Positions 2,631-9,259 of a stretch of DNA of 52,044 nucleotides are shown here, one piece after another. Under the pieces are notes generated by a model that was not told where the DNA came from, searched no databases, and saw nothing but the letters and a program-made list of their open reading frames with translations. A program made the translations under genes and the position numbers. Source of the stretch: Syntrophobacter sp. SbD2. GTDB taxonomy: Bacteria; Desulfobacterota; Binatia; UBA9968. How positions within the stretch are numbered: the first letter of the stretch is position 1; each line of letters starts with the position of its first letter. Location: NCBI GenBank assembly GCA_945889495.1, contig CAMDBU010000019.1:1-52044 (forward strand), given 5' to 3'.

Positions 2631-2671
2631 GCCGCCCCGTGAAGGTAACTTCATGTGGGCGGCTTTTTTTT
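2631..2671 (+). terminator. Intrinsic terminator after the secretin locus
   Basis: GCCGCCC CGTGAAG pairs with CTTCATG GGGCGGC across a GTAA tetraloop (one bulged T at 2656, one G-T pair), followed directly by eight T residues (2664-2671). It is the strongest terminator in the window and separates the secretin locus from the molybdenum-hydroxylase accessory genes. It also covers an ATG at 2653 that opens the next reading frame, which argues that the real start of that gene lies downstream at 2716. Confidence 0.93.
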
Positions 2672-2715
2672 GTTCGCGCTCTGGTGCTGGTTATGATTTA
2701 GCTAAGTCATCGACC

Positions 2716-3537
2716 ATGGCTCAACCAAGTTTGAATCTATCGGTATTGCTGCGCGGCGGCGGCGAGATGGCGAGCGGTATCGCGCACCGCTTGCACCAGT
2801 GCCATCTGCCGGTGCTGATCTGCGAGATCGCGGCGCCAACCACGGTGCGGCGGACGGTTTCCTTCGCCGATGCGGCGTTCACCGGCCGGCAGGTGATTGA
2901 AGGTGTCGAAGCGGTTAAGATTGCCTCGGTGGGCGAGGTTCATGGTGTCTGGAGCCGCGGCGCAATTCCGCTGCTTGTCGATCCCGACGCTGGGCTCGGT
3001 AAAACGCTCAAGCTGGTGGTACTGGTTGACGCGATCATCGCCAAGCGCGATAGCACGACCCAGCTGACCGATGCGCCGCTAGTGATCGGCGTCGGGCCGG
3101 GATTCATCGCCGGTCAAAACGTCCACGCGGTGGTCGAGAGCAATCGTGGCTATCATCTTGGCCGGGTGATCTGGCAGGGCGGCGCCGAGCCCGATACCGG
3201 CGTGCCGGCGCCAGTGGCCGGTCACACTGAAGCGCGGGTCTTTCGCGCGCCGCGGGATGGGCGATTTACCGCACAGCGGCGCATCGGCGATTGGGTTGTC
3301 GCGGGCGAAATTATTGGCGAAGTTGCCGGAGTGGCGGTGTATTCGGCGATCGCTGGACTGGTTCGCGGCATGCTCCATGATGGGGTTCAATGCCAGGCGG
3401 GCATGAAGCTTGGCGACGTTGATCCAAGGGGTGAAAGAGAGTATGTTGACTCGATTTCCGACAAGGCTAGGGCCATTGGCGGAGGGGTTCTGGAGGCGAT
3501 ACTACACGCATACCCAAGCCTGAAAATTCCCGCCTGA
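2716..3537 (+). CDS. yqeB: EF2563/YqeB-family selenium-dependent molybdenum hydroxylase accessory protein
   Basis: The 273-residue protein carries the family's opening VLLRGGGEMASGIAHRL, followed by VLICEIAAPTTVRRTVSF and VIGVGPGFIAGQNVHAVVES. It also shows GAEPDTGVPAPVAGHTEARV and a glycine-rich end (AIGGGVLEAIL). The family co-occurs with selenium-dependent or related molybdenum hydroxylases and is thought to act in cofactor or enzyme maturation; its reaction is unknown. I chose ATG 2716 because the in-frame ATG at 2653 sits inside the preceding terminator. The context agrees: CoxD-, CoxE- and XdhC-type maturation proteins follow on the same strand. No structural hydroxylase or selenophosphate gene is seen in the window, so the client enzyme must be elsewhere. 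Confidence 0.85.
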   Translation: MAQPSLNLSVLLRGGGEMASGIAHRLHQCHLPVLICEIAAPTTVRRTVSFADAAFTGRQVIEGVEAVKIASVGEVHGVWSRGAIPLLVDPDAGLGKTLKLVVLVDAIIAKRDSTTQLTDAPLVIGVGPGFIAGQNVHAVVESNRGYHLGRVIWQGGAEPDTGVPAPVAGHTEARVFRAPRDGRFTAQRRIGDWVVAGEIIGEVAGVAVYSAIAGLVRGMLHDGVQCQAGMKLGDVDPRGEREYVDSISDKARAIGGGVLEAILHAYPSLKIPA

Positions 3538-3577: not shown

Positions 3578-4498
3578 GTGGATCCTAAACAGCTGACCAT
3601 CGAGAAAGTACAAGAAATTCTTCTCACCGAAAAGTATGTCTGCGACCGCCAACTGGCGACGGTAGTCTATTTATCGTTGGTGATGGGTAAACCGCTTCTT
3701 CTTGAAGGCGAAGCCGGCGTCGGCAAGACCGAGATCGCCAAGGTGCTGTCTAAAGTACTCGGCGCCCGGCTGATCCGCTTGCAGTGCTACGAAGGGCTCG
3801 ACGCCAGCACCGCGCTCTACGAGTGGAACTATCCCAAGCAGATGCTCCACATCAAGCTCGAAGAGATCGAGCATGGCGACAAGAAAAAGGTTGAGACCGA
3901 GATCTTCACCCAGGATTACCTGGTCAAACGGCCGCTGCTCGACGCGATCCAAAGCGACGACGTCAATCCTCCGGTGCTGCTGATCGACGAGATCGACCGC
4001 GCCGACATGGAGTTCGAGGCGTTTCTGCTCGAAGTCTTGTCCGATTTTCAGATCACCATTCCCGAGTTGGGCACGGTGACCGCTAAGCATCGGCCCTATG
4101 TGTTTCTTACCTCTAACCGAACCCGGGAAATTCACGACGCCTTGAAACGGCGCTGTCTGTATCACTGGATCGAGTACCCGACCTTCGACAAGGAATACGA
4201 GATCATCACCACCAAGTTCCCCGAAGTGGAGACCAAGATGGCGCAGCAAATCTGCGCCTTCATGCAAAAGGTCCGCGAGATGAATTTCTACAAGCGCCCG
4301 GGCGTCGCCGAAACTTTGGACTGGGCCTCGGCGCTGATCGCGCTCAACCGTAAGCAGCTGGACGACAAGTCGGTGATCGAGACCATGGGCTGCGTGTTCA
4401 AGTACCGCGAAGATTTAACCCACCTGCGCGAGCAGGTGGAAAACCGCCAGTTCAGCCTCGACCAATTGCTGCGCACTTCGCCGGAGCTGGTGAGCTAG
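3578..4498 (+). CDS. coxD: MoxR-type AAA ATPase, CoxD-like
   Basis: 306 residues with a Walker A GEAGVGKTE at 44-52 and Walker B LLIDEIDRAD at about 134-143. A sensor-1 region (VFLTSNRTREIHDALKRRC) follows and includes the arginine finger area. The protein matches the MoxR class found in aerobic CO dehydrogenase clusters (CoxD), where the ATPase works with the VWA protein CoxE as a chaperone that completes the sulfurated Cu/Mo or Mo active site. The gene lies 6 bp upstream of the CoxE-like gene, the usual CoxDE pairing. ATG 3578 follows AAGGAAAAA at 3561-3569. The role as a metallo-chaperone is inferred from family and context; the client may be any xanthine-oxidase-family enzyme. Confidence 0.88.
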   Translation: MDPKQLTIEKVQEILLTEKYVCDRQLATVVYLSLVMGKPLLLEGEAGVGKTEIAKVLSKVLGARLIRLQCYEGLDASTALYEWNYPKQMLHIKLEEIEHGDKKKVETEIFTQDYLVKRPLLDAIQSDDVNPPVLLIDEIDRADMEFEAFLLEVLSDFQITIPELGTVTAKHRPYVFLTSNRTREIHDALKRRCLYHWIEYPTFDKEYEIITTKFPEVETKMAQQICAFMQKVREMNFYKRPGVAETLDWASALIALNRKQLDDKSVIETMGCVFKYREDLTHLREQVENRQFSLDQLLRTSPELVS

Positions 4499-4504
4499 AG
4501 TCCG

Positions 4505-5719
4505 ATGGATATCACGCCGGAAACCGTCGCCGAAGCGGTCAACAAAGTTGCGTCGGTGCGCGGCAAGGGCACCTTGCCGAACATGATGGCGTTCGGCCGC
4601 GCCTTGAAGCATCTCGGCGTCAAGGTGAGCTTGAGCCAGCTGATCGACGCGTCGCGTTCGGCCGATCTGGTCGACATTGCCGAGCGCGGCGATTTCCGCG
4701 CGCTGCTCCGCGCCAATCTGATTTCCCAGAAAGAAGACTTCGCGGTCTTCGACATGCTGTTCGATTGTTTCTGGCGCGAGCAGAGCTACGAGCGCGTGCC
4801 GATGGAGACCATGGACATCCAGGGCACGCCCACCGAGTCCAACGCGCCGGAAGGCGGCGACGAAGAAGGCGGCGTCGAAGAGGCGGCTTCGGAAGCGATC
4901 GCCAACGAAAATCTGCCGCTGGAAAATCTCGACGAGTTCGCGGTGCCGACCTATAGCGCCCAGGAGCTGATGAACCGCAAGGACTTCAGCGAGATGGGCA
5001 CCGAAGAGAGCCGCGCCATCGCCCGGGCGATTCTCCTCATCGCCACCAAGATCGCCACGCAGATCAGCCGGCGCAAAAAAATCGGCCGCAAGGGGCCGGT
5101 GATCGATCCGCGCGCGACCATGCGCCGGAGCATGAAATTCGGCGGCGAAGTGATCGAGATGTCGCACCGCAAACGGCGCATCAAGAAGACCAAAGTGGTT
5201 TTGCTTTGCGATGTCAGCGGCTCGATGGATTGCTACAGCCGGTTTCTGATTCAGTTCATGTACGGCTTGCAAAACGAGCTGTGGGGCGTGGAGACTTTCG
5301 TTTTCAGCACGTCGCTCAGCCGGATCACCCATCTGATCCGCACGAAAAATATTATCGATGCTTTGGACAAGATTTCCGGCACCATCCTGGGCTGGTCCGG
5401 CGGCACCAACATCGGCCGCTCGCTGCATACGTTTAACCGCAACTTCGCGCCGAGCATGGTGACCCACCGAACGGTAGTGGTGATCATCAGCGACGGTTGG
5501 GACCGCGGCGATGTCACGCTGTTGGAAAAGGAAATGCAGGACATCAAGCGGCGCGCCAAGAAAATCATCTGGCTCAATCCGTTATTGGCCAGTGAGAACT
5601 ACGAACCGCTGTGCAAAGGCATGCAGGCGGCGCTGCCGTACTTGGACATGTTTTTGTCGGTGCATAACGTCAATAGTTTGGTGGCGTTGGGGCGCACCCT
5701 TGAGAAAATGGTAGCGTGA
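4505..5719 (+). CDS. coxE: VWA-domain protein, CoxE-like
   Basis: 404 residues. An N-terminal helical region is followed by an acidic Glu/Gly-rich linker (about residues 115-137) and a basic stretch (RRKKIGRKG). A C-terminal VWA domain follows, with MIDAS motif DVSGSM at about 236, SGGTNIG at about 298 and ISDGWDRGD at about 328. All metal-ligating positions of a functional MIDAS appear intact. CoxE-type proteins bind the CoxD AAA ring and recruit the apo-hydroxylase. The gene directly follows coxD (6 bp gap) and so is very likely co-translated with it. It precedes two XdhC-family genes after an 88-bp gap that holds a heptamer array. Confidence 0.88.
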   Translation: MDITPETVAEAVNKVASVRGKGTLPNMMAFGRALKHLGVKVSLSQLIDASRSADLVDIAERGDFRALLRANLISQKEDFAVFDMLFDCFWREQSYERVPMETMDIQGTPTESNAPEGGDEEGGVEEAASEAIANENLPLENLDEFAVPTYSAQELMNRKDFSEMGTEESRAIARAILLIATKIATQISRRKKIGRKGPVIDPRATMRRSMKFGGEVIEMSHRKRRIKKTKVVLLCDVSGSMDCYSRFLIQFMYGLQNELWGVETFVFSTSLSRITHLIRTKNIIDALDKISGTILGWSGGTNIGRSLHTFNRNFAPSMVTHRTVVVIISDGWDRGDVTLLEKEMQDIKRRAKKIIWLNPLLASENYEPLCKGMQAALPYLDMFLSVHNVNSLVALGRTLEKMVA

Positions 5720-5807: not shown

Positions 5808-6206
5808 ATGGCTGGACCGGGTGCTTGTTATACCGATGCGGATTTAGAGGCGAGCAAGAAAAAAGATTCGATCTATCATCAGGTGAGCGAGTTTCTTGCC
5901 AAGGGTGAGACCGTGGCGGTGGCGACCATCGTTTCGGCCAAGGGTTCGACGCCGCGCGAAGTCGGCGCCAAGATGGTGGTGACCGCCTGGGGCGAGATAT
6001 TGGGCACCATCGGCGGCGGCTGCGGCGAGGCGGACGTCAAACGCGAAGCCATCGAAGTGATCCGCACGCGCAAGCCGCGCACCGTGCGGGTCGATTTGTT
6101 GGACGACATCTCTTCGGACAGCCCGGCGGTGTGTGGCGGTATCATGAACGTGTTCATCGATCCCTGGTGGCAGGAGCGCGATCGGGAGGCAGTAAGCGCC
6201 AAATGA
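5808..6206 (+). CDS. XdhC/CoxI-family protein, N-terminal domain only
   Basis: 132 residues containing the XdhC_CoxI domain: ATIVSAKGSTPREVGAKMVV, IGGGCGEADV and the C-terminal PAVCGGIMNVFIDPW. In XdhC of purple bacteria this family binds molybdenum cofactor and hands the sulfurated form to xanthine dehydrogenase. The Rossmann-like second half of a full XdhC is absent here but present in the next gene, whose ATG overlaps this stop (ATGA, 6203-6206). ATG 5808 has GGGAGG at 5797-5802 as ribosome binding site. A two-gene arrangement of short and long XdhC-family proteins occurs in Mo-hydroxylase clusters (CoxF/CoxI type), so this is probably not a broken gene. Confidence 0.85.
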   Translation: MAGPGACYTDADLEASKKKDSIYHQVSEFLAKGETVAVATIVSAKGSTPREVGAKMVVTAWGEILGTIGGGCGEADVKREAIEVIRTRKPRTVRVDLLDDISSDSPAVCGGIMNVFIDPWWQERDREAVSAK

Positions 6207-6973
6207 GTTCGCTGTCCGAAGAATTAGTCAAAATCGCCGAGCAGGGCGAGGCGGCGGTGTTGGTCACCATCGTCGAAGTCAGCGGCGGGGCCATCGAGCC
6301 CGGCGCCAAATGTCTGATCCGCGACGGCCAGGCCCAGGTCGATACCATCGGTGACGCCAAAGTTGTGGCTGCCCTGGTGGGCGAGAGCGAGCGCCACGCC
6401 AAGGCGGAAAAATCTCAACTGGTGTCGCTAACCATTCCTGACAGCGCGATCAAGCTCGAAGCGTTTTTCGAAGTCATGCCGGCGCCGCCCAAGTTGATCG
6501 TTGTCGGCGCCGGCCATATCGCCGTGCCGCTGGTGAAGATTGCCAAGGTGATGGATTTTCACGTCACGGTGATCGACGACCGTTTGCTCTACGCCAACCG
6601 CGAGCGCTTTCCCGACGCCGACGAGGTGTTGACCGGCGACATGGCGCAGATGCTCAAGGAAATGAACATCACGTCGTCTTGCTACATTGTTCTGATCACT
6701 CGCGGCCACGCCTACGACGAGCCTTGTTTGCGCAATATAATGCACAGCAAAGCCAAGTACATCGGCATGATCGGCAGCCGGCGGCGCATCAAGGCGTGTT
6801 TCCAGCGCTTCCGCGACGAAGAAAAAGTCACCGAGGAGGCGATCGAAAGAATCTACGCCCCCATCGGCCTCGACATCGCCACGGAAACACCGGCGGAAAT
6901 CGCGCTATCGATCTTGGGCGAGGTGATCAAAATTCGCCGCGGCGGCAAGGCGGCATCTTTGTCGGGGCACTAG
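6203..6973 (+). CDS. XdhC-family protein with Rossmann domain (CoxF-like)
   Basis: 256 residues from ATG 6203, coupled by a 4-bp overlap to the previous gene; GGGAGG at 6184-6189 may serve both. A degenerate XdhC_CoxI region occupies about residues 1-85 (VEVSGGAIEPGAKC replaces the usual S-P-x-G-A core). The XdhC Rossmann domain follows (LIVVGAGHIAVPLVKIAK, VIDDRLLYANRERFPDAD, TRGHAYDEPCL, YIGMIGSRRR, IGLDIATETPAEIALSILGEV). The protein probably binds a nucleotide or cofactor and completes Mo-cofactor insertion with the short partner upstream. An open frame reaches 6131, but ATG 6203 is the only start with coupling and family fit. Confidence 0.88.
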   Translation: MSSLSEELVKIAEQGEAAVLVTIVEVSGGAIEPGAKCLIRDGQAQVDTIGDAKVVAALVGESERHAKAEKSQLVSLTIPDSAIKLEAFFEVMPAPPKLIVVGAGHIAVPLVKIAKVMDFHVTVIDDRLLYANRERFPDADEVLTGDMAQMLKEMNITSSCYIVLITRGHAYDEPCLRNIMHSKAKYIGMIGSRRRIKACFQRFRDEEKVTEEAIERIYAPIGLDIATETPAEIALSILGEVIKIRRGGKAASLSGH

Positions 6974-7007
6974 TTAGTGGGTCGTTCCGGTAGGCTGAGA
7001 AGATGAT

Positions 7008-7073
7008 TTAACCACGAAAGACACGAAGGGTTCGGATAAGTTAATTTCCGACATTGGTGCTTTTCGTGGTTAA
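7008..7073. repeat. Small palindromic element with nonamer core
   Basis: Twelve-base perfect inverted repeats, TTAACCACGAAA (7008-7019) and TTTCGTGGTTAA (7062-7073), bracket 42 bp. Next to the left arm the sequence has period 9: CACGAAAGA CACGAAGGG (7013-7030). It lies between the XdhC gene and the riboflavin kinase gene. It could fold as a hairpin in the transcript but has no T-tract, so I call it an intergenic repeat rather than a terminator. Confidence 0.75.
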
Positions 7074-7123
7074 TCGATTCCTGGACTTGGCAGATTGTCC
7101 CGGCAAAAACTTGGGAACCAACG

Positions 7124-7531
7124 ATGGAACGGTTGACTGGCGTGATATTCTCCGACTTGGGCCAAGCGTCGTCGTTCATGGCGCTCGATTGGGTGCGGGA
7201 TTTGTTGAACCGGCGTTTGGGCTATCATCCGTTTCCGGCGACGCTGAATATCCGGCCCGCGGGCGCCGAAGATGCGCGGGTTTGGCGCCTGGTGCGGACT
7301 GAACATGCCGGCACGCCATTGACCACGGCGGCGGACGGTCATTGCGGCGCGAAGTTGTATCGCGTGGCGATCCGCGGCGCGGCTGATGGGGTAACAGTCG
7401 ACGGCGCGGTCCTGGTGCCCGAAGTGGATGATTATCCAAAGGATAAAATTGAAATCGTCGCGCCGGTGCGTTTGAAGGATTACTTCCAGGTTAACGACGG
7501 CGATCAACTTACTGTGGAGTTTCTCAGTTGA
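7124..7531 (+). CDS. ribK: CTP-dependent riboflavin kinase, archaeal RibK type (DUF120)
   Basis: 135 residues, the length of the archaeal enzyme, with the diagnostic LGYHPFPATLNIRP motif (about residues 32-45), HCGAKLYRVAI, and the ending FQVNDGDQLTVEFL. The archaeal RibK family phosphorylates riboflavin to FMN with CTP instead of ATP. In bacteria the usual enzyme is the unrelated RibF, so this is an atypical gene. Its stop overlaps the start of the UbiX gene, an FMN user (TTGA at 7528-7531), which strongly suggests that FMN is made for the neighbouring enzyme. Family assignment rests on motif and length; the nucleotide preference is inferred. Confidence 0.82.
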   Translation: MERLTGVIFSDLGQASSFMALDWVRDLLNRRLGYHPFPATLNIRPAGAEDARVWRLVRTEHAGTPLTTAADGHCGAKLYRVAIRGAADGVTVDGAVLVPEVDDYPKDKIEIVAPVRLKDYFQVNDGDQLTVEFLS

Positions 7532-8181
7532 ATACCAAGAAGCGGCTGATTATCGGCGTCTCCGGCGCCACCGGGGCGATCTACGGCGTGCGCATGTTGG
7601 AGATCCTCGCCAAGATGCCAGATATCGAAACCCATCTGGTGCTGAGCAAGGCGGGCAAGATGACCATCCAAGTTGAGACCCCGTATTCGGTTAAAGAAGT
7701 CGAGGCAATGGCTGATGTGGTCCATGACATCAACAACGTCGGCGCGAGCATTTCCAGCGGCTCGTTTCGCACTGCGGGCATGGTGATCGCGCCCTGCTCG
7801 ATGAAGTCCATGGGCAGCATCGCGTCGTCGATCGGCGGCGATCTGTTGGTGCGCGCCGCCGATGTGGTGTTGAAAGAACGCAAGAAGCTCGTCCTGGTGG
7901 TGCGCGAGACGCCGCTTCATCTAGGCCATCTCGAAGCCATGGTGTCGCTGACGCGCATGGGCGCGATGATCTTTCCGCCGGTGCCGGCATTTTATCACCG
8001 GCCGAAAACTTTGGACGACGTGATCAATCAGACGGTGACGCGGATTCTCGATCAGTTCGACATCGACGTCGAGCTATTTCACCGCTGGGACGACGACGGC
8101 ATGAGCCGCCATCCCGACGCGGCCAAAGCCAAGCCGACGCCGATTGGCGCGGCTAAAGCGCGCAAGGAAGCCAAGAAGTAG
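7528..8181 (+). CDS. ubiX: UbiX-family flavin prenyltransferase
   Basis: 217 residues starting at TTG 7528, with GGAG at 7516-7519 at correct spacing and 4-bp overlap with the riboflavin kinase gene; no better start exists. It shows the flavoprotein opening GVSGATGAIYGVRML, the FMN/prenyl site segment VIAPCSMKSMGSIASS, and RETPLHLGHLEAMVSLTRMG near residues 131-150. UbiX joins a dimethylallyl (mono)phosphate to FMN to make prenylated FMN, the cofactor of UbiD-type (de)carboxylases. No ubiD gene is in the window. The C-terminus has a Lys/Ala-rich tail of about 30 residues (KAKPTPIGAAKARKEAKK) beyond the usual end. The next gene makes DMAPP. Confidence 0.9.
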   Translation: MNTKKRLIIGVSGATGAIYGVRMLEILAKMPDIETHLVLSKAGKMTIQVETPYSVKEVEAMADVVHDINNVGASISSGSFRTAGMVIAPCSMKSMGSIASSIGGDLLVRAADVVLKERKKLVLVVRETPLHLGHLEAMVSLTRMGAMIFPPVPAFYHRPKTLDDVINQTVTRILDQFDIDVELFHRWDDDGMSRHPDAAKAKPTPIGAAKARKEAKK

Positions 8182-8206
8182 CGCTAAGCTCGACGTTCTC
8201 CGGACC

Positions 8207-9259
8207 ATGCCACGCCCGCGGGCGAGTAAAGCCCTGACCCAAACCCAAGCGCGCAAAAAACAGCATCTAGAAATCTGCCTCGACACCGAGAGCGTCAGCA
8301 GCCATTCCGGCACGGGCCTCGACCGCTACCGTTTCATTCACAACGCTTTGCCCGAACTAGACCTCGACGAGATCGATGTCGGGACGACCTTCCTCGGCAA
8401 GCCGCTCAAAGCGCCGATATTGATTTCGTCCATGACCGGTGGCTTCGATCTAGCGCGCAAGGTCAATCGCAATCTCGCCGCCGCGGCCCAGGAACTCGGC
8501 ATCGCCATGGGCGTTGGCTCGCAGCGGGTCGCCATCGAAGCGCCGTCGGCGGCCGATTCCTTTCAGGTGCGCGATGTCGCGCCGGACATTTTGCTGCTCG
8601 GCAATCTCGGCGCGGTGCAGCTCAACTACGGCTACTCGATCGATCAGTGCCGGCGCGCCATCGAAATGATCGGCGCCGACGGCTTGATTCTGCATTTGAA
8701 CGTGCTTCAAGAAGCGCTCCAGCCCGAGGGCAACCGCAACTTCAAAGGCCTCACCGCGAAGATCGCCGCGCTGTGTCGCGATTTGAATGTGCCGGTGGTG
8801 GTCAAGGAAGTCGGCAACGGTATTTCCGTCGAGGTTGCTAAGCGGTTGCATGCCGCCGGTGTCGCCGCCATCGATGTCGCCGGCAAAGGCGGCACCGCTT
8901 GGTCCGCCGTCGAAGCCCAACGCGCCAGCCAGCAAGGCAAGGCTTACAGCTCGACCTTCACCGATTGGGGCATTCCCACCGAGGAAGCTTTGGTCGGCGT
9001 GCGCGCCGCGCTGCCGGCTATTCCGCTGGTCGCCTCGGGCGGCATTCGCAGCGGACTCGACATCGCCAAGAGCATCGCCCTCGGTGCCGATTTGGCAGCA
9101 TTTGGTCAACCGTTGCTGGCCGCCGCGTTGGAATCTTCGGCGCGGGTGGTCGACCATATCGCCGGCCTAATTCACGAGCTCAAAGTCAGCATGCTCTGCG
9201 CTGGCGCGGCGAATCTCGCGGCGCTGCGAAACATCCAGCTCTTACGACAAAGTCAGTAG
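8207..9259 (+). CDS. fni: Type 2 isopentenyl-diphosphate delta-isomerase (FMN-dependent)
   Basis: 350 residues with the family motifs in order: RKKQHLEICL, ISSMTGG, MGVGSQR, LLGNLGAVQL, LHLNVLQEALQPEGNRNF, VVKEVGNGIS, DVAGKGGTAWS and SGGIRSGLDIAK. The enzyme interconverts IPP and DMAPP and requires FMN and Mg2+. ATG 8207 gives the usual N-terminus; an in-frame ATG at 8144 would overlap ubiX by 38 bp and add 21 basic residues that the family lacks. With the two genes upstream it forms a set that could provide FMN, DMAPP-derived prenyl groups and the prenyltransferase. A link to carotenoid or quinone synthesis is also possible, but no such gene follows. Confidence 0.92.
   Translation: MPRPRASKALTQTQARKKQHLEICLDTESVSSHSGTGLDRYRFIHNALPELDLDEIDVGTTFLGKPLKAPILISSMTGGFDLARKVNRNLAAAAQELGIAMGVGSQRVAIEAPSAADSFQVRDVAPDILLLGNLGAVQLNYGYSIDQCRRAIEMIGADGLILHLNVLQEALQPEGNRNFKGLTAKIAALCRDLNVPVVVKEVGNGISVEVAKRLHAAGVAAIDVAGKGGTAWSAVEAQRASQQGKAYSSTFTDWGIPTEEALVGVRAALPAIPLVASGGIRSGLDIAKSIALGADLAAFGQPLLAAALESSARVVDHIAGLIHELKVSMLCAGAANLAALRNIQLLRQSQ

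Follow-up and report, generated by a model that had tools for sequence, protein, structure and literature searches.

Our analysis shows that in the bacterial order UBA9968 (Desulfobacterota; Binatia) a predicted riboflavin kinase of the DUF120 family is encoded directly in front of UbiX. Wherever the contig spans both genes, which is the case in 32 other genomes of the order, DUF120 is followed by ubiX; G004 and G013 are counted here with a DUF120 that is split or only partial. The 4-bp overlap between the two genes recurs in 11 of the 32, as judged from the alignment start. The gene order therefore recurs, as the sequence-only reading had asked of it, and the pair is also found elsewhere in the phylum and in Azoarcus. 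We think it probable that DUF120 and UbiX form a dedicated FMN branch, in which the putative kinase feeds UbiX for the supply of prenylated FMN (prFMN). The clustering of the two genes in bacteria with dozens of UbiD enzymes suggests a private supply line for the cofactor.

The window, which is the whole stretch of 52,044 nucleotides analysed here, contains the features listed in Table 1. DUF120, ubiX and the gene of a type 2 IPP isomerase (IDI2, closest PDB entry 1vcf) lie on one strand and score over the cut-offs of their profiles, which confirms the layout first read from the sequence: DUF120 overlaps the TTG start of ubiX at 7528 by 4 bp and 25 bp separate the end of ubiX from the ATG of idi2. 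This ATG, at 8207, sits within a longer frame opening at 8144, and the Rossmann-type xdhC gene is an open frame from 6131 whose true start is probably further downstream. A site scan found no terminator- or promoter-like sites in the 150-bp spacer between xdhC and DUF120; because of the hairpin in this spacer, we can only infer that the unit is co-transcribed as a single transcript.

Table 1. Genes and spacer of the DUF120-ubiX locus, in window coordinates
Feature	Position	Strand	Evidence and remarks
yqeB-like molybdenum-cofactor protein, facultative member	2653..3537	+	TIGR03309 320.6 bits, cut-off 220
moxR/coxD-like AAA+ ATPase	3578..4498	+	AAA_5; MadB_ATPase 284 bits, below cut-off 475
coxE-like VWA protein	4505..5719	+	PF05762 197 bits
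xdhC/coxI-like protein, 132 aa, molybdenum-hydroxylase maturation	5808..6206	+	PF02625 88.5 bits; kept upstream in the order
xdhC Rossmann-type protein, molybdenum-hydroxylase maturation	6131..6973	+	PF13478 149.8 bits
Spacer xdhC/DUF120, 150 bp, strong hairpin AACCACGAAA ... TTTTCGTGGTT	6974..7123	+	RNA fold -46.4 kcal/mol, z -2.23
DUF120 (RibK-type, predicted riboflavin kinase), 135 aa	7124..7531	+	PF01982 77.5 bits, cut-off 25
ubiX, flavin prenyltransferase, 217 aa, TTG start	7528..8181	+	PRK06029 275.9 bits, cut-off 188
idi2, type 2 isopentenyl-diphosphate isomerase, 350 aa from ATG	8207..9259	+	TIGR02151 423.7 bits, cut-off 281.3

The DUF120 protein shares its Pfam family with RibK (MJ0056; PDB 2vbs-2vbv) and RbkR (5trd), and matches MJ0056 directly (phmmer, 1.7e-11). 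Its AF2 model (pLDDT 89.1) aligns with 2vbv over 126 residues (Z 19.1, rmsd 1.9 A), Foldseek finds 2vbu at E 2e-9, and by this model comparison the protein has the cradle-loop barrel fold of MJ0056, known in CDP- and FMN-bound form, over the full chain. F18, T40, N42, C74, P99 and E110 are invariant across 53 aligned rows. The T-L-N motif, the proline and the glutamate are common to MJ0056 and the bacterial proteins, whereas C74 is absent from MJ0056 and the first loop shows a G-to-D change, SDLGQA here against SGLGEG in archaeal RibK. Since the score of 62.4 bits does not reach the cut-off of 168 of the NCBIfam equivalog ribK_Meth, we limit our claim to the DUF120/RibK family and fold and do not assign the protein to the narrow equivalog. 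Kinase activity and the use of CTP are predictions from this family membership. The protein had been called archaeal-type, which holds for the family; in our tree, however, the bacterial DUF120s are split from the four archaeal ones (branch support 93, not starred). With these four, the only archaeal sequences in the tree, all on one side of the branch, we see no sign of a recent transfer from archaea.

FMN in bacteria is usually ascribed to RibF. The RibF of the source genome is intact and bifunctional, with full FAD_syn and Flavokinase domains, and DUF120 is therefore the second predicted riboflavin kinase of the genome; a replacement for a lost RibF kinase domain can be ruled out. The protein differs from archaeal RibK in being bacterial, linked to ubiX and accompanied by a complete RibF. 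That RibF already makes FMN is an argument against a dedicated supply.

UbiX (TIGR00421 237.1 bits, cut-off 108.9) is the sole UbiX of the source genome over the family cut-off, and its closest PDB entries are 1sbz and 6qlg. Its Gln168 aligns with Q203 of AnUbiX and is present in all 31 readable members of the order as well as in the source genome, so the pocket position (181 in PaUbiX) holds one of the two residues looked for there, Gln or His. AnUbiX, with a pocket Gln, is described as DMAPP-specific and PaUbiX, with a pocket Phe, as DMAP-specific. The pocket residue suggests that UbiX here uses DMAPP directly, which corrects the earlier view of DMAPP as a precursor of the prenyl donor. It also bears on the possibility, in our opinion very unlikely, that DUF120 has changed its substrate and either makes the prenyl donor, for example DMAP from prenol, or phosphorylates a prenylated riboflavin. 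A precedent exists in E. coli, where DMAP is made from prenol by ThiM and from DMAPP by NudJ according to PMC12359138 (citing Wang et al. 2018), and the Nudix gene after ubiX-DUF120 in Azoarcus and the invariant C74 could be read in the same way. On the other hand, DMAP may not be needed when the UbiX pocket has Gln or His and not Phe, and the whole-chain match to MJ0056 and the retained motif, proline and glutamate argue against a new substrate. A Nudix protein as the DMAP source of the order was also considered and rejected: when 850,427 bases of stretches from the order, the phylum and Azoarcus, some of them overlapping, were scanned for the motif, the one match was in Azoarcus, with the caveat that divergent members can escape such a scan.

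The sequence-only reading described a prenyl-FMN cassette of three genes. The recurring DUF120-UbiX link, the many UbiDs and the RibK-type fold agree with this, but the conserved unit is larger and begins upstream at moxR/coxE/xdhC. Among the 33 other carriers in the order, and counting only contigs that reach the gene in question, xdhC precedes DUF120 in 32 of 32, coxE lies upstream in 31 of 31 and moxR/coxD in 28 of 28. These genes, with xdhC in two versions, are on the strand of DUF120 and as constant as ubiX. The yqeB-like gene is seen in 11 of 33 stretches from relatives, and several of these stretches stop short of its place. IDI2 is an optional and not a constant member of the cassette: it follows the unit in all 24 carriers of families f1 and f2, but none of the nine f3 genomes has an IDI2 over the cut-off, though they possess 16-41 UbiDs each. 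G028, an f3 genome, has two PNPOx-like proteins after ubiX, of which the second scores below its cut-off.

The search for UbiD clients found 36 UbiD places in the source genome, in spite of its complete RibF; the combination that the sequence-only reading had named as refuting, a complete ribF without any ubiD, is therefore not what this genome shows. In an alignment of 37 open frames, including one piece of 282 aa, the R-E-E positions, which we take from Fdc1 to be the catalytic residues, are kept in 34 (R), 33 (first E) and 35 (second E), so clients with an intact active site exist in the same genome. UbiD is present in all 35 genomes of the order with 16 to 125 copies each, DUF120 in 34 (one is a fragment just under the cut-off) and UbiX over the cut-off in 33, never more than once and adjoining DUF120. 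In the 23 other genomes of the class that were searched, DUF120 and UbiD are absent and no UbiX passes the cut-off; weak sub-cut-off UbiX matches are all that 13 genomes show, and some of these belong to sister families of the order. This contrast within the class may represent a single evolutionary event. Compared with the known UbiX/PAD1 and UbiX-UbiD system for prFMN, the locus has a UbiX over the family cut-off and clients that mostly keep R-E-E. The differences are that a putative FMN-making kinase precedes UbiX, that IDI2 follows it in f1 and f2, and that one UbiX stands against 16-125 UbiDs.

The association with UbiD extends to the phylum. All 30 DUF120-positive genomes have UbiD (median 4; two or more in 28), compared with 23 of 30 DUF120-negative genomes (median 1; two or more in 4), a difference with p 5e-9 per genome and 3e-5 on family medians. 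The 23 DUF120-negative genomes with UbiD also show that UbiD can be used without DUF120. Among 38 DUF120 genomes outside the order, 18 have ubiX within the fetched stretch, in a gene order different from that of UBA9968, and three have idi2 near DUF120, including the two most UbiD-rich of the 30 counted (G091 with at least 42, G185 with 26). One stretch from outside the order, L158, has coxE and moxR. In another 18 of the 38, DUF120 is not by ubiX and is either fused to a HAD-phosphatase motif or near one. Three haloarchaeal plasmids were examined, and on these it is found near ribB (two) or a flavin reductase. DUF120 is thus not confined to prFMN, raising the question whether it is a general FMN-only second kinase of flavin homeostasis, serving many FMN enzymes, with its proximity to ubiX and idi2 reflecting general FMN use. 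IDI2 is itself FMN-dependent. The ribB contexts, the PNPOx-like proteins of G028 and the HAD-phosphatase fusions, which recall the plant kinase-hydrolase AtFMN/FHy (described in PMC9678776), fit such a role. We nevertheless regard it as unlikely, as DUF120 tracks the number of UbiDs, ubiX is its constant neighbour throughout the order, and 6 of the 23 class-mates have an IDI2 over the cut-off yet lack DUF120, UbiD and an over-cut-off UbiX.

Under the dedicated supply that we favour, the three genes would form that end of a cofactor-maturation island which supplies prFMN. DUF120 would convert riboflavin to FMN, by its family with CTP, outside the route of RibF, which as a bifunctional enzyme can take FMN onward to FAD. 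UbiX, translated from the overlapping start, would receive this FMN and prenylate it in reduced form, probably with DMAPP itself as the dimethylallyl donor, and IDI2, where present, would keep DMAPP available from the IPP of the MEP pathway. A single UbiX would in this way supply the 36 UbiDs of the source genome.

The upstream genes moxR/coxD, coxE and xdhC are maturation genes of molybdenum hydroxylases, the other numerous enzyme family of the order. AAA+, VWA and XdhC stand in a row as in the coxD-coxE-coxF/xdhC set of CO dehydrogenase-type Mo-hydroxylases, with the difference that here they are joined to the prFMN module. A family search found no Mo-hydroxylase genes on the window's contig. 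One might ask whether the locus is simply a Mo-hydroxylase maturation operon, with DUF120 giving flavin to the FAD subunits and ubiX and idi2 as bystanders. We consider this extremely improbable. In the order xdhC is as constant a neighbour of DUF120 as ubiX, and Mo-hydroxylases are numerous (8 to at least 38 per genome, against 0-13 in class-mates), but the phylum stretches outside the order, 18 of them with ubiX, gave no xdhC match, and class-mates G044, G050 and G057 have 11-13 Mo-hydroxylases without DUF120. More tentatively, we suggest that a lineage specialised in UbiD, with up to 125 UbiDs and one UbiX, might maintain a separate, CTP-paid FMN pool apart from RibF and FAD and committed to prFMN, and might keep it in one island with Mo-hydroxylase maturation because both enzyme families share degradative pathways. 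In the source genome 5 of the 36 UbiDs have a Mo-hydroxylase within 5 kb against about 2 expected, which is weak. G028 is a single-contig genome for which 17 of the 34 UbiDs were listed, and 6 of these 17 have one within 5 kb; distances of 3, 5 and 8 kb were tried and gave P values of 0.025, 0.007 and 0.0008 under random placement. UbiD neighbours were taken as frames of at least 200 aa within two frames of a UbiD, which misses small genes.

We found no description of a RibK-UbiX link in openly licensed papers. A kinase accompanying UbiX could provide FMN for tens of prFMN enzymes without passing a bifunctional FAD synthetase. Some UbiDs are poorly activated in laboratory hosts (PMC10865409), and the matching DUF120 would be a testable handle in these cases. 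The group looks uncultured and, as its UbiD sets are the largest among the genomes counted here, is also a possible source of decarboxylases and carboxylases. A mobile cassette was considered and rejected: no phage record matched, and the plasmid matches are five records, four of them haloarchaeal and one from Azoarcus. The plasmid of Azoarcus sp. KH32C carries ppcBDAG-ubiD-ubiX-DUF120-NUDIX, a phenylphosphate carboxylase cluster in which UbiX and DUF120 are paired with a 4-bp overlap beside UbiDs, as here. It differs in that ubiX comes first, a Nudix gene takes the place of IDI2 and coxDE/xdhC are absent from the stretch. Its kinase candidate is annotated just as 'DUF120 domain-containing protein'.

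The genome carries the three genes that the sequence-only reading had grouped as a compact supply cassette for prenylated FMN (prFMN), the UbiD cofactor, and their spacing and common strand are borne out. The co-oriented genes immediately 5' of DUF120 are yqeB and those for a MoxR/CoxD-like ATPase, a CoxE-like VWA protein and two proteins of XdhC type; 3' of the isomerase gene a 422-bp gap precedes the start of glycosyltransferase genes. XdhC appears to be present as two proteins (window 5808-6973), one with XdhC_CoxI only and the other Rossmann-type with a weak XdhC_CoxI match. The two frames as listed overlap, and both are present in nearly all order loci read. The spacer 5' of DUF120 holds a strong hairpin (window 7008-7075; AACCACGAAA/TTTTCGTGGTT) with no T-run after it, and its arm (19 bases searched) occurs once within the window.

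Genes of the DUF120-ubiX-IDI2 cluster in the window
Feature	Position	Strand	Remark
DUF120 protein	7124-7531	+	
ubiX	7528-8181	+	TTG start; 4-bp overlap with DUF120
Type 2 IPP isomerase (IDI2)	8207-9259	+	25-bp gap after ubiX

DUF120 was found in 34 of the 35 genomes searched from the window's own order (families f1, f2 and f3), counting a fragment just below the cut-off in G004, versus none of 23 genomes from the rest of the class. The sole exception is an assembly of 670 contigs (G003) in which IDI2 lies 428 bases from a contig end, so the absence is likely an assembly gap. The neighbourhoods of the 33 other order carriers were fetched and neighbours found by tblastn. The proposed gene order recurs: ubiX lies 3' of DUF120 in all 32 contigs reaching that far (stretch L047 falls short), and xdhC lies 5' in 32/32 (L069 falls short). 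Among contigs long enough, coxE is upstream in 31/31 and moxR in 28/28; yqeB is found in 11/33 stretches. The cluster genes of the order loci are all on one strand, with the 4-bp DUF120/ubiX overlap in 11 loci. In stretches L058 and L059 DUF120 is partial or split.

The AF2 model of the DUF120 protein (pLDDT 89.1) matches the CDP- and FMN-bound structure of MJ0056, the archaeal CTP-dependent riboflavin kinase RibK (Z 19.1, 1.9 A over 126 residues), and its other top matches are MJ0056 and Thermoplasma RbkR. F18, T40, N42, C74, P99 and E110 are invariant in an alignment of 53 DUF120 proteins. The protein misses the NCBIfam cut-off for the methanogen RibK equivalog (62.4 vs 168 bits). As RibF matches occur in 35/35 order genomes (two as pieces) and both domains are complete in the copy of this genome (FAD_syn at 168.6 bits, Flavokinase at 139.9 bits), DUF120, a putative second kinase, is an addition to RibF and not a replacement.

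A complete ribF without ubiD would have spoken against the cassette, but this genome has 36 UbiD places, supplying the clients that the sequence-only reading had sought. UbiD occurs in 35/35 order genomes, with at least 16 copies each and a range up to at least about 43, and in 0/23 class-mates. Complete counts for four genomes were 125 (G012), 64 (G007), 61 (G009) and 34. The 125 UbiD-family matches of G012, in 8.3 Mb with a listed contamination estimate of 9%, stand beside a single UbiX over cut-off. Across 58 genomes, UbiX over cut-off is found in 33, all from the order, one per genome and on the DUF120-bearing contig; elsewhere there are only weak matches (20-34 bits) and, in G011, a 55-position piece. 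Residues aligned with the R-E-E set of the UbiD family, which we take to be catalytic, are kept in 34, 33 and 35 of the 37 UbiD open frames aligned from this genome. A Pfam scan of 116 proteins neighbouring UbiDs returned mainly solute-binding proteins of NMT1/SBP type (as many as 15 from a single family), with 6 cupins, 4 amidohydrolases and 4 Mo-hydroxylase large subunits, a set that fits catabolism of imported acids.

In the proposed mechanism DUF120 would convert riboflavin to FMN, UbiX would form prFMNH2 from reduced FMN and DMAPP, IDI2 would balance IPP against DMAPP, and the prFMNH2 would serve many UbiDs. In a sequence search the nearest matches to the window UbiX are E. coli O157 UbiX (1sbz) and a PAD1 (6qlg). 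Its Q168, counted on these alignments, aligns with PaUbiX F181, AnUbiX Q203 and O157 H164; the position is Q in 31/31 readable order UbiX and in Azoarcus UbiX, while of the 18 phylum genomes whose stretch includes ubiX 6 have Q and 12 have H. AnUbiX is reported as DMAPP-specific and O157 UbiX as accepting both donors, in a paper that also describes this residue as not the sole determinant of donor choice (PMC6541611). The match to AnUbiX makes direct use of DMAPP likely, judged from sequence.

The place of IDI2 in the cassette holds for two families of the order and fails in the third. In f1/f2 carriers IDI2 follows ubiX on the same contig in 23/24, and in the 24th (G011) the ubiX end and IDI2 lie together on a separate contig; IDI2 is found in 26/26 f1/f2 genomes (24 over cut-off, 2 as pieces under it). 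None of nine f3 genomes has IDI2 over cut-off, with only weak matches of FMN enzymes there. DMAPP production is possible without IDI2, since IspH of the MEP pathway is matched in 32/35 genomes of the order, all nine f3 ones among them. G028, an f3 genome, has a pair of PNPOx-like (FMN split-barrel) proteins after ubiX at the f1/f2 IDI2 position (L077:10547-11948); the second of them scores below its cut-off.

Beyond the order the proposed linkage stands in part. In a sample of 395 phylum genomes 40 have DUF120, 38 of them outside the order, and the surroundings of all 38 were read in stretches of unequal length. ubiX is in the stretch of 18/38, mostly as ubiD-ubiX-DUF120 with ubiX first, and IDI2 is close to DUF120 in 3/38 (G091, G178, G185). 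In 18 others DUF120 is instead fused to a HAD-type phosphatase motif or lies near one, an assignment by motif only save four fusions confirmed by Pfam (that of G178 among them); of the remaining two, G091 has IDI2 only and G215 neither ubiX, HAD motif nor IDI2. The motif comes after DUF120 within a single open frame in stretches L144, L145, L148, L153, L154, L156, L161, L163, L164, L165 and L166. G178 (L164:1504-6914) has UbiD, DUF120-HAD, UbiX, a second DUF120 and IDI2 inside about 6 kb. These fusions resemble the plant riboflavin kinase/FMN hydrolase, a fusion reported in PMC9678776, and on that ground the HAD part is more likely to be a flavin phosphatase.

The DUF120-ubiX link spans more than one phylum, because an Azoarcus sp. 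KH32C plasmid has the gene order ppcB-ppcD-ppcA-ppcG-ubiD-ubiX-DUF120-NUDIX. There (L204:7378-8976), downstream of phenylphosphate carboxylase, UbiX and DUF120 have a 4-bp overlap, with a NUDIX hydrolase after them. This hydrolase is a candidate DMAPP-to-DMAP enzyme; E. coli NudJ is reported to perform that conversion in vitro (PMC12359138), and one transcript with ubiD, ubiX and a NUDIX hydrolase-resembling gene is described from a benzene-degrading culture (PMC5852087). The IDI2, Nudix, HAD and PNPOx-like genes met with DUF120/UbiX plausibly all touch prenyl donor or flavin pools. Three copies of DUF120 on haloarchaeal plasmids have ribB or a flavin reductase nearby.

UbiD copy number was compared between the first 30 of the 38 DUF120-positive genomes and 30 DUF120-negative genomes taken at roughly regular steps. 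UbiD is present in 30/30 (median 4, range 1 to at least 42, the top being G091) versus 23/30 (median 1, 0-4), and two or more UbiDs in 28/30 versus 4/30. Mann-Whitney tests give p 5e-9 with genomes as units and p 3e-5 with family medians (12 vs 24 families, a few in both), which handle relatedness only roughly.

Each cluster enzyme is of a known family, and we found no description of the RibK-UbiX link in the openly licensed literature searched. UbiD maturation is described as diverse, with LpdD a prFMNH2-binding chaperone (PMC10865409), and a dedicated kinase would add another kind of helper beside it.

Each order genome has between 8 and at least 38 large subunits of molybdenum hydroxylases versus 0 to 13 in class-mates, with 28 matches at 27 places in the window's genome and 40 in G028. 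In G028, 6 of the 17 UbiDs listed (of 34) lie within 5 kb of a Mo-hydroxylase (random placement mean 1.8, P 0.007), and in the window's genome 5/36 do versus about 2 by random placement. The two maturation modules in one island may reflect shared pathways of Mo-hydroxylases and prFMN enzymes.
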